Positions 394 through 33,303 of a stretch of 64,000 nucleotides of DNA are shown here, piece after piece. Source of the DNA: Pseudidiomarina terrestris (lineage in GTDB: Bacteria > Pseudomonadota > Gammaproteobacteria > Enterobacterales > Alteromonadaceae); NCBI RefSeq assembly GCF_030466405.1, contig NZ_JAGGJF010000001.1, positions 372,001-436,000 of the forward strand. Direction: 5' to 3'. The position numbers and the translations under genes are program-made. The first letter of the stretch is position 1, and each line of letters begins with the position of its first letter. Under the pieces are notes generated by a model. The model ran no database searches and was not told the DNA's origin. It saw only the letters and a list, made by a program, of their open reading frames with translations.

Positions 394-396
394 CTA

Positions 397-424
397 TTGA
401 CGAAACCCTTACATCTGCTATGTT
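397..424 (+). promoter_or_regulatory. Predicted sigma-70 promoter of pilA leader
   Basis: A -35 element TTGACG (397-402) and a -10 element TATGTT (419-424) are separated by 16 bases. The -10 is preceded by TG one base upstream, as in extended -10 promoters. Transcription would begin near 431, giving a leader of about 325 bases before the pilA start at 757. I found no convincing sigma-54 -24/-12 pair in 394-756, although many pilA genes use one. Prediction only. Confidence 0.55.
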
Positions 425-474
425 TACTAAGCAGTGCGCAATCCGCAGGTTTAGTCTGTGGAATGCCAGGCAAT

Positions 475-592
475 TGCTTTAAAAGGCAAAACCGTTGTGA
501 GGCGGTGACGCAAAACCTCCGGTCCCTACCGGTGCCTTTTCTGACCTTTTAACGTAAAGGTACTGGCGGATAGCGGGGCTGCAGGCTAAAGT
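475..592 (+). promoter_or_regulatory. c-di-GMP-I (GEMM-I) riboswitch in the pilA leader
   Basis: The stretch matches the GEMM-I aptamer layout. It shows GGCAAAACC (485-493), a hairpin with stem ACCGTT/GGCGGT closed by the GNRA tetraloop GTGA (497-500), then the signature GACGCAAA (507-514) and CCTCCGG (516-522). A second arm follows, with TCC 523-525 pairing GGA 568-570, CCGGT 529-533 pairing ACTGG 562-566, and ACCTTT 544-549 pairing AAAGGT 556-561. The arm ends in TAGCGGGG (571-578). A short closing stem CTTTA/TAAAG (477-481/587-591) is possible. Known GEMM-I RNAs bind cyclic di-GMP with these conserved A, G and C positions. Downstream are two mutually exclusive stems (672-679/687-694 and 677-682/703-708) that could form the expression platform. 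This accounts for most of the 363 bases between nadC and pilA. The cGAMP-preferring variant cannot be excluded by eye. Confidence 0.85.
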
Positions 593-756
593 CTGGTGGA
601 TGGAGTGGCTATTTCGGCTTTCACGGTCGCAAAGCGCAACCACAGTCTTTCGGCTGATGCAGAGTTTGTTGTTGTTGGTGTGTTAGACCAACAAGGGAAT
701 GCCACACCGTACAACAATTATAATTGAATACTATCGTACCTTTCGGGAGATTTGAC

Positions 757-1242
757 ATGAAAGCGCAAGTACAAAAAGGTTTTACCTTAATCGAATTGAT
801 GATTGTAGTAGCAATCATCGGTATTTTGGCGGCCGTCGCCATTCCACTTTATTCTGACTATACGCAGCGTGCGAAGGCTAGTACGGGTATGTCTGCTTTG
901 TCTTCATACAAGACAGCAATTGCTCTGTGCTATCAGAAACAAGGATCGTTTGCTAGTTGTTCCACGGCCGGGACTAACGGCATCCCTGATGGAGTAACAG
1001 CCCCAGCGTCAGCTACCGCAGATGCCCCAGTAGCAGGCCTTCGTGAGGTTACAATCGGAGCAGACGGCGTTATAAACGCTACTTTAGATGCAGTTCCTGC
1101 AACTGGAACAGGTTTTATCGATGTCACCTTAACTCCTGCAGCGGCAGCGGGCAGCGCAAATATGTCTTGGACGATTGCATGTTCCGATTTTGCTGCAGAA
1201 GACGGCAGCCGTGTAGATGGTTGTACGGTAGGGACAGCCTAA
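757..1242 (+). CDS. pilA: Major type IV pilin PilA
   Basis: This 161-residue prepilin is the subunit of the type IVa pilus. It has a short positively charged leader ending KG, cleavage before Phe9, and the mature N-terminus [22 protein letters not shown] with Glu5, the residue needed for assembly. PilD in the same cluster would cleave and N-methylate it. The globular domain is Ala/Thr/Gly-rich and ends with a cysteine pair (TIACSD and DGCTV) that could form the C-terminal disulfide loop; two further cysteines lie at ALCYQ and FASCS. The ATG at 757 is chosen because GGGAGA lies six bases upstream and it gives a normal leader; an upstream TTG at 724 would add 11 unlikely residues. The gene sits behind a c-di-GMP riboswitch and ahead of a strong terminator, so it is probably its own transcript. 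Confidence 0.96.
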
Positions 1243-1318: not shown

Positions 1319-1350
1319 ATGGGCTGGGTGTTCCCAGCCCACTTTTTTTG
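1319..1350 (+). terminator. Rho-independent terminator of pilA
   Basis: An eight-base perfect stem GGGCTGGG (1321-1328)/CCCAGCCC (1333-1340) with a TGTT loop is followed by AC and seven T residues (1343-1349). It separates the pilin transcript from pilBCD; the pilB ribosome binding site AGAAAGGG follows directly. Confidence 0.9.
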
Positions 1351-30753: not shown

Positions 30754-32940
30754 ATGAGAAAACCGACGCACTACACGCCAGCGCAGGCGAAGTGGCGTAT
30801 GGTGCGCGATTTTTTTGGCTTATTTTTTATCGCCGCCGCCCTGCTCTTCGCTGTTTATTCTATTGTCGAGACTGAACGTGTGCAGCAGCGCGAGATCGAA
30901 AAACGTCGTGCTCTGGAGCATCTGAGTTCGATGCGTTCAAGTATCGAACATCGTATTCAGGCTAATGTGCTGGTCCTGCGCGCGCTGAAACCCGAAATTC
31001 TCTGGCAAGACACCCCCGACCGCAGTCGTCTGCAAAAGATTCTGGATGAGTTTTTGACGACTGAGCTCGATATCAGTCACCTGGCCCTGGCTCCCGATCT
31101 ACGTATCAGCTTTATCTACCCGCGTGCCGGTAACGAACAGCTGCTCGGCACCGATTACCGTAACGTGCGTGAGCAATACCATGAAATCCTGCGCGCCATT
31201 GGCGGTCAGGACATTATCCTGAGCAGCCCGGTGAATTTGCTGCAAGGGGGCACGGCGTTCATTGCCCGACTTCCTATTTTCCAGGCCGACGGCAGCTTCT
31301 GGGGGATTGCCTCACTGGTCATTGATCATGAGCACCTGTTCCATGAGGTCGGCTTCTACGATCACCCTGAATACCAGTTTGTTGTCTATCGCCAATCACT
31401 CAACAATGGAGCTGACATTATCAACGGCGACGCCGCAGTGCTCGAGCTTGACCCCATAAAGACGGATGTTCAGGTGCCTGGCGACCAATGGCAGCTGGCG
31501 GTGTCACCACGCCGCGGCAGTTGGCTTGATACCGAGCAGGGTTACTATGTGCACTGGTTAACAGGTTTAGCAGTTACCGCACTTATTGTTGCCGCTTTCG
31601 CGGTGCTGATCCTGACTCAGCGGCGCTTGCGCTTTGCGCTGCATACCATCAGTTTTCAGGCCCGTTTTGATCCGCTGACCGGCCTTGCCAACCGCAATTA
31701 TTTCCAACAACAGCTCGAGCAGCGCATTGCCGATGCGCAGAGCCACAACAAAGGCTTTGCGCTGTTAATGCTGGACCTTGACCATCTGCGCGACATTAAT
31801 GACGCGCTGGGCCAGGATATCGGTGATGGCTTGCTCAAGCATGTTGCCGAGCAACTCGGTCGCAGTATACGTCCACAAGACATGGTCGCACGCGTTGGCG
31901 GTGACGAATTTATGCTGGCGCTGGCCGATGTCGACACGGCAGCTCACGCTGAGCAACGCGGCAAAGCGATAATCAATGATTTGCTGAATACTGCCGACAT
32001 TCAGCAAAACCACATCAATATTACCGCCAGCCTGGGGATTGCCCTCTACCCCGATGACGCTACGCACGCCCAGCAACTAGTGAAATGTGCTGAACTGGCG
32101 ATGTACGCAGCGAAAGCCATGGGCTCGCTCTCGGTAGCGTGCTACGACCGGACCTTGCGTCAGAATACTGAACAGCATATCGCGCTCCATCATCAGATGA
32201 TTCATGCTCTGGAGAACAACCAGTTTCATGTCGAATACCAGCCGGTGATTGATACAGTCAGTGGCTTATTAACCCGCTGTGAAGCGTTGATCCGCTGGGA
32301 TCATCCTGAGCATGGCAATATCCCACCCGGTGATTTTATCCCCATCGCCGAGAAGACGGGTGCCATCGTCTGGCTGGGTGACTTTGTTTTGCGGCAGGTG
32401 ATGACTGACTGGCAGATTATGCGCGCTGCCGGGCTGGACCTAACCGTCGCCGTCAACCGGTCGCCTCGTGAGTTCCATGACAAAGATGTCGCCAGTGAGT
32501 GGTTGGAAGCCCTGCAGGAAGCCAATATGCCCCCCAACCGGCTGATGCTGGAAATTACCGAATCCATGCTGATGCGCAATCAGGAACGTCAGTTGATGAG
32601 TTTACGCCGTCTGCGCAGCGCCGGTGTGCACCTGGCCATCGATGACTTTGGTACCGGCTATTCGAGTCTCAACTACTTACGCTTTTACCCCATTGATGTG
32701 ATTAAAATTGATCGGGAGTTTATGAAGGGGGTGCCGGCGAATCGGCAACAAACGGCTTTAGTTGACGTACTCATCCGAATTGCACATACATTGGATCTGA
32801 TGGTCGTCGCTGAAGGTGTCGAAACCCGCGCTCAAGTCGAGTTTTTGCAAAGCAAAAACTGTCACTTCCAGCAGGGCTTTTATTATGGCCAAAGCTTGCG
32901 CCTGGACACCTTCATCGACTACACCAAACGTTTTAATCAG

Positions 32941-32955
<15 letters not shown>
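30754..32955 (+). CDS. CHASE-GGDEF-EAL membrane protein, c-di-GMP enzyme
   Basis: This 733-residue protein is predicted to make and/or degrade cyclic di-GMP. A membrane segment (about 18-38) and a second (about 270-290) flank a periplasmic CHASE-like sensor of about 230 residues. The GGDEF domain has an intact GGDEF (382-386) and an intact RxxD inhibitory site (RPQD, 373-376). The EAL domain is also intact by motif: EALIRW (EAL 510-512), LEITESMLM, IDDFGTGYSSL, IDREFM and VAEGVET. Both activities are therefore possible. Neither this ATG nor an in-frame TTG at 30730 (adding eight residues) has a good ribosome binding site, so the start is uncertain. A TTGACG (30663-30668) with poor -10 partners lies upstream. 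The last five codons overlap the 3' end of rnpB on the other strand. Confidence 0.93.

Positions 32956-33303
<348 letters not shown>

Follow-up and report, generated by a model that had tools for sequence, protein, structure and literature searches.

The pilA locus and its promoter

Near the start of the 64,000-nucleotide stretch of Pseudidiomarina terrestris DNA that we analyzed (the window, from a genome of 2,632,670 bases in 14 contigs), a riboswitch occupies the gap that separates a nadC-like gene (recognized by eye; stop codon at 391-393) from pilA, the gene for the major type IV pilin. As an earlier reading made from the letters alone (the sequence-only reading) had it, the regulated gene encodes a type IV pilin. 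It lies directly upstream of pilB, and the gene order continues, by eye, with pilC, pilD, and coaE. The features of the locus, apart from those between the aptamer and pilA, are as follows.

397..424, + strand: sigma-70-type promoter (TTGACG, 16-nt spacer, extended -10 TGC, TATGTT)
465-471 and 476-479, + strand: 5' strands of aptamer helix P1 (GCCAGGC and GCUU), with partners at 591-597 and 583-586
475..586, + strand: c-di-GMP-I (GEMM-I) riboswitch aptamer (RF01051, 51.3 bits, full model; helix P2 covaries)
757..1242, + strand: pilA, major type IV pilin of 161 aa (Pfam N_methyl and Pilin and TIGR02532, all over cut-off)
1320..1341, + strand: terminator-like hairpin in the pilA-pilB gap (9-pair stem with 7 GC, then a T run)

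Taken alone, the promoter motif is weak (one was found, against 1.4 expected on shuffling). The sigma-70-like promoter that the earlier reading saw ending at 424 nevertheless recurs, as TTGAC(G/C), a 16-nt spacer, and TG(C/T)-TAT(G/T)TT, in all 21 riboswitch leaders of the genus, with TTGACG or TTGACC as the -35 element, TATTTT as the -10 element in genome G020, and slight differences in G013 and G020. The pattern is also present in two of the four pilA leaders that have no riboswitch. Transcription would start near 431.

A consensus scan of 520 nt upstream of pilA in 25 leaders found no sigma-54 site, in agreement with the sequence-only reading. Of the genome's five strong sigma-54 activator genes, the three that we scanned with profiles resemble NtrC, PspF, and an unassigned response regulator beside a histidine kinase, and the other two look by eye like NorR and TyrR. 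The name PilR was absent from the best 25 NCBIfam matches of each of the three scanned activators, and nothing here supports PilSR control of pilA. The contrast that had been drawn with the PilSR/sigma-54 logic was examined in two respects, the sigma-54 sites of 25 leaders and the names matched by three activators, and is a tentative one. Farther along the window lie a bacterial RNase P class A RNA (32937-33302, - strand, 319 bits) and a GGDEF domain (31663-32124) within a 744-codon open frame, ~31 kb from pilA.

The aptamer, its ligand, and its distribution

A covariance-model search with RF01051 gave a match at 475-586 that spans the whole model (1-87 of 87) and scores 51.3 bits against a gathering score of 35; over the 64-kb window this corresponds to E = 4.3e-7, far better than chance. 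This search was the check proposed together with the original assignment, and its result lies above the family threshold rather than below it. The GEMM-I hallmarks are all present: the GNRA tetraloop (GUGA), GACGCAAA at 507-514, CCTCCGG at 516-522, and TAGCGGGG at 571-578. The riboswitch had been placed in 394-756 as a whole, and it does lie within those limits, but the aptamer occupies only 475-586, with P1 strands in 465-479 and 583-597; 587-756 is a second conserved part beyond the aptamer, which the earlier reading left uninterpreted. In the long second arm, for which three stems had been proposed, the test covered the outer nine P3 pairs (99.4% of cells paired); farther in, both the length and the sequence of the arm are variable.

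For comparisons we used an alignment (A1) of 20 leaders, which excludes that of G020 (judged too divergent) and the four riboswitch-less leaders. The tested helices P1, P2, and P3 are paired in 97.5 to 100% of the cells of these 20 leaders, and five of the six P2 pairs show changes on both sides. P1 is paired in 99.3% (465-471/591-597) and 97.5% (476-479/583-586) of cells; covariation is silent there because the P1 strands are mostly invariant. All 21 riboswitch leaders retain the GNRA tetraloop. We are nearly certain that the pilA leader carries a real c-di-GMP-I riboswitch. A decayed or chance aptamer that has no function could be argued from the moderate score, the long and variable P3 arm, and the T at position 92 in G001, but this is hardly credible in the face of the P2 covariation, the universal tetraloop, the presence of the aptamer in 21 of 26 genomes, and the conserved platform described below.

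In placing the ligand-contacting bases in the Rfam columns we relied on an assumed correspondence, which agrees with the GGC model. With this placing, G20, A47, and C92 (Vc2 numbering) all occur in the window aptamer, G20 and A47 in 21 of 21 leaders and C92 in 20 of 21. Riboswitches that bind cGAMP (GEMM-Ib, those of Geobacter included) have A at position 20, whereas all 21 leaders here have G. These sequences fit, as expected, a predicted c-di-GMP binder and not a cGAMP or GGC variant, the three bases being described as ligand contacts in PMC4744006. Another cyclic dinucleotide as ligand (cGAMP, or whatever the GGC variant prefers) could be proposed from the score with the GGC variant family RF03167, which at 51.2 bits almost equals that with RF01051, and from the relative G008, which passes the RF03167 threshold (61.5 versus 59). 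The window itself stays below that gathering threshold of 59, it has A47 where the GGC consensus has G (GACGCAAA against GACGCGAA), and G008, although over the threshold, likewise has GACGCAAA. Together with the conservation of the contact bases, this makes a ligand other than c-di-GMP very improbable. The genome holds 39 GGDEF matches, so c-di-GMP is very likely made.

The sole T at position 92 among the 21 leaders belongs to locus L054 (G001:C27:6358-6458; genome 77% complete), which is also the sole one of the 20 aligned leaders to lack the long-range helix described below; perhaps this aptamer is decaying or has changed in ligand.

RF01051 found the aptamer in 21 of the 26 genomes of the genus, one copy each just upstream of the pilA orthologue (in G001, the contig holds only the first 29 PilA residues), and one extra match elsewhere in each of G000, G001, and G003. 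Four of the genomes lacking a match (G009, G015, G021, and G025) have pilA with a short leader, and G023 (88% complete) gave neither an RF01051 match nor a full-length pilA match. These five genomes are small (1.9 to 2.2 Mb); the carriers, except the incomplete G001, have about 2.4 to 2.9 Mb. In a NadC tree, much of which is poorly supported, the carrier G020 is the first branch in the genus (93/92 for the rest), although both G020 and G025 sit on long branches, which makes their placement unsure. The four riboswitch-less leaders fall in three places in the tree as drawn, and in at least two by supported branches; riboswitch-less G015 lies inside a 99/96 clade with two carriers. The simplest reading is that the riboswitch was present early and was then lost repeatedly. 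In G025 the promoter and the pilA start survive together with a remnant of P1 (GCCAGGC), whereas the aptamer and the downstream helices P4 and P5 are gone and the Shine-Dalgarno (SD) sequence is CGGGAAA. At six outgroup pilA loci (L103-L108) RF01051 scored below threshold, and among the matches listed from outside the genus we saw, by eye, no pilA within 10 kb of an RF01051 match.

Two exclusive helices and a conserved anti-Shine-Dalgarno sequence

The ~170 nt from the aptamer to pilA form a conserved expression platform with the following features.

579..597, + strand: shared switching strand CUGCAGGCUAAAGUCUGGU, the 3' side of P1 or the 5' side of P4, in the same A1 columns
605..609, + strand: 5' side (GUGGC) of a long-range helix with GCCAC at 701-705, found in the RNAalifold consensus
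646..652, + strand: anti-SD sequence UCUUUCG, within the P4 3' strand (646-662) and complementary to the SD sequence
668..718, + strand: P5 hairpin, GUUGUUGU (668-675) with ACAACAAU (711-718) and, inside it, GGUGUG (677-682) with CACACC (703-708)
744..750, + strand: SD sequence CGGGAGA, 6 nt before the AUG

P1 and P4 are mutually exclusive helices, both of which use the strand at 579-597. P4 joins 579-591 to 647-662 through 13 pairs, and 98.8% of its cells are paired in the 20 leaders; six of the 13 pairs are invariant, six vary on one side, and one shows a change on both sides (in G004). For the P1 state and the P4 state alike, the cells paired, the both-side changes, and the covariation score exceeded those of all 500 shuffles, figures that cover the whole structure, including the strongly covarying P2, and that related sequences can reach without structure. 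The number of further pair types lay within the shuffles, 408 of 500 reaching it for the P1 state and 215 of 500 for the P4 state. No second Rfam family was found in the platform when 400-800 was searched with E values up to 10.

The 3' strand of P4 contains a complement of the ribosome-binding site that is conserved along with it. In the 20 leaders, 139 of 140 anti-SD:SD cells are paired, although the leaders are related, so that such counts are not independent, and the two sequences are nearly invariant, so that there is no covariation between them. CGGGAGA is the SD sequence of 20 of the 21 riboswitch leaders and of none of the four riboswitch-less ones. In 16 of the 21, no other uninterrupted complement of the SD region matches the anti-SD sequence in length; another one ties with it in two (G020 and G022), and a longer one exists in three (G012, G008, and G024). 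G020, the most divergent riboswitch leader, has the same layout in other letters: its SD sequence is UGGAGAA, and UUCUCUG, a 7-base complement, is entirely contained in a P4 whose sequence differs, although another 7-mer there is equally long against a sequence overlapping the SD.

The anti-SD sequence is thus held in a helix (P4) that excludes P1 of the aptamer, which is an arrangement expected of a translational OFF switch. At low c-di-GMP, 579-591 would pair downstream as P4, hiding the anti-SD at 646-652 and leaving the SD open, so that PilA would be made. Upon c-di-GMP binding, P1 (465-471/591-597 and 476-479/583-586) would capture the switching strand and P4 could not form; the freed UCUUUCG would then pair with CGGGAGA at 744-750 and block pilA translation. 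The aptamer, the two exclusive helices, and the conserved complementarity to the SD are computed directly, and on their strength we lean toward an OFF switch that works through this anti-SD; which ligand binds, and in which direction and how strongly pilA responds, are predictions. The proposal that the pilin is controlled at the RNA level is itself strengthened by the conserved two-way platform.

We consider it probable that the riboswitch acts through ribosome access. Were it to act through mRNA decay or transcription termination instead, one could point to 701-718, where C is abundant and G scarce, a composition common among Rho sites; to the title of a 2019 article by Pursley, according to which Vc2 reportedly controls RNA stability; and to a terminator-like hairpin (CCGGT..ACCGG, then T-rich sequence) at 519-532, which lies within aptamer helix P3 and would compete with it. 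The strands of that hairpin recur in four of 21 leaders (the window's own and those of G004, G003, and G002) but are missing from the other 17, no terminator-like site lies between the aptamer and the ATG, and the complementarity directed at the SD would be left unexplained, so this explanation appears unlikely. An intrinsic terminator as the platform was rejected: the four terminator-like sites in 300-1400 lie upstream of the aptamer match (454-471), in P3 (519-532), in pilA (1093-1109), and after pilA (1320-1341).

The sequence of the switching strand was also used to search GTDB r220 (84,980 species). The motif occurred in 18 stretches, 17 from Idiomarina/Pseudidiomarina and 1 from a gammaproteobacterial MAG, with a pattern too strict to catch forms that differ as much as the G020 one does. 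The expression platform has so far been seen in this genus only.

Direction of the switch and comparison with known riboswitches

We then compared the two states in a nested folding model, whose scope leaves ligand and pseudoknots outside. Over the 20 leaders, the mean openness of the SD was 0.46 with P4 forced and 0.21 with P1 forced; the SD was more open with P4 than with P1 in 15 leaders, less open in 3, and within 0.02 in 2, the window included. In the window's own RNA the SD openness was 0.29 in both states, and the anti-SD:SD probability was 0.00 with P1 forced. Only 6 of the 20 leaders gave a probability above 0.5 for this helix with P1 forced; its value of 0.00 with P4 forced follows from the constraint itself. 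By duplex energy, other segments of the leader out-bind the P4 strand for the SD region in 18 of 21 leaders, and in 3 of 21 none is better. The region 475-770 is not unusually stable compared with shuffles (z = -0.56). The difference in SD openness across the leaders favors the OFF switch; the neutral result for the window's own RNA, the energy ranking, and the ordinary stability count against it.

The long-range helix offers a different partner for the P1 state. It is kept in 19 of the 20 leaders, as GUGGC:GCCAC in 12, GUGGC:GUCAC in 1, and GUAGC:GCUAC in 6, and is lost in 1. It crosses both P4 and the anti-SD:SD pairing and must therefore be a pseudoknot or part of another state. It also shares ground with P5, whose outer stem has 8 pairs in the window and, in 12 of 21 leaders, strands that match TTGTTGT..ACAACAA strictly. 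On this basis the riboswitch might turn pilA ON: with P1 formed, 605-609/701-705 would open P5 and free the A/C-rich 711-724 together with the SD, and without ligand, P4 and P5 would hide 711-724. The RNAalifold consensus of the 20 leaders does combine P1 with the long-range helix; the helix has been kept through a change from GUGGC:GCCAC to GUAGC:GCUAC; among 19 leaders folded with P1 forced, 5, including that of the window, favor it over anti-SD:SD; and there are ON precedents in Vibrio Vc1 and C. difficile pilA1, the latter of class II (PMC4744006). However, anti-SD:SD is the better partner in 13 of the 19 (in 1 the two are within 0.3 kcal/mol), the base change may be a single event, since the six GUAGC:GCUAC leaders form one group of the NadC tree (support 87/94), and both the frozen SD/anti-SD pair and its re-pairing in G020 would go unexplained. 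We accordingly regard an ON switch as a minority possibility and retain the OFF switch as the preferred reading.

A strict pattern finds AAN repeats (e.g., AACAATAATAAT) that start 37 to 52 nt ahead of the pilA AUG in 17 of the 21 riboswitch leaders; the window's 713-724 (AACAATTATAAT) does not fit this pattern. The repeats might serve as a motif for Hfq or as a standby site. Rather speculatively, the leader may have more than two states, with the 605-609/701-705 pseudoknot and the AAN stretch serving as a second input (perhaps through Hfq or a standby site); the pilin mRNA would then integrate c-di-GMP with another signal.

c-di-GMP-I switches are described as acting in either direction, and the two of Vibrio cholerae as working without termination (PMC6366702). 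The nearest relative of the OFF switch proposed here is Vc2 of V. cholerae tfoY, likewise a class I aptamer in a gammaproteobacterium and a translational OFF switch, for which translation is reported to be restricted when c-di-GMP is bound (PMC7371385); its target differs, being tfoY and not a pilin gene. Vc1, upstream of gbpA, shares the class I aptamer and, by its authors' account, the lack of an apparent terminator, but it is an ON switch for which they report finding no anti-SD (PMC4744006). With respect to the target, the closest case is Cdi-2-4 upstream of Clostridioides difficile pilA1, where c-di-GMP likewise controls the gene of a major type IV pilin through a riboswitch, which differs in its unrelated class II aptamer, its ON direction, and its use of transcription termination (PMC6366702). 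Geobacter GEMM-Ib riboswitches are likewise GEMM-I and stand upstream of pilus assembly genes, among others, but are cGAMP specific (PMC6456294). For Aeromonas hydrophila, another gammaproteobacterium with a fimbrial target, a review (PMC6366702) lists putative c-di-GMP riboswitches ahead of fimbrial genes and chitinase genes and specifies, as far as its relevant passage goes, neither the type of fimbriae nor the mechanism. In the papers listed, the C. difficile class II ON switch alone is described as a c-di-GMP riboswitch that controls a major pilin gene, and literature on Idiomarina and riboswitches mentioned no pilin riboswitch in its titles or the opening lines of its abstracts.

If the OFF switch is real, then in most of a marine genus a second messenger sets the amount of the major pilin directly on the mRNA, in a direction probably opposite to that of the C. 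difficile pilin riboswitch. The genus would also provide a compact natural series, made up of 20 similar leaders, one that has been rewritten, and at least one loss, in which to study the way a class I switch acts on a ribosome-binding site far from it.

The second RF01051 match of the genome (C6:194705-194797, i.e., L001 1501-1593 of G000; 69 bits) lies upstream of genes for a protein with a Spore Coat U (SCPU) domain and for a chaperone of the PapD type, which resemble a chaperone-usher system, so that pili of both types may answer to c-di-GMP. In G003, the first gene after the extra RF01051 match is, by eye, similar.
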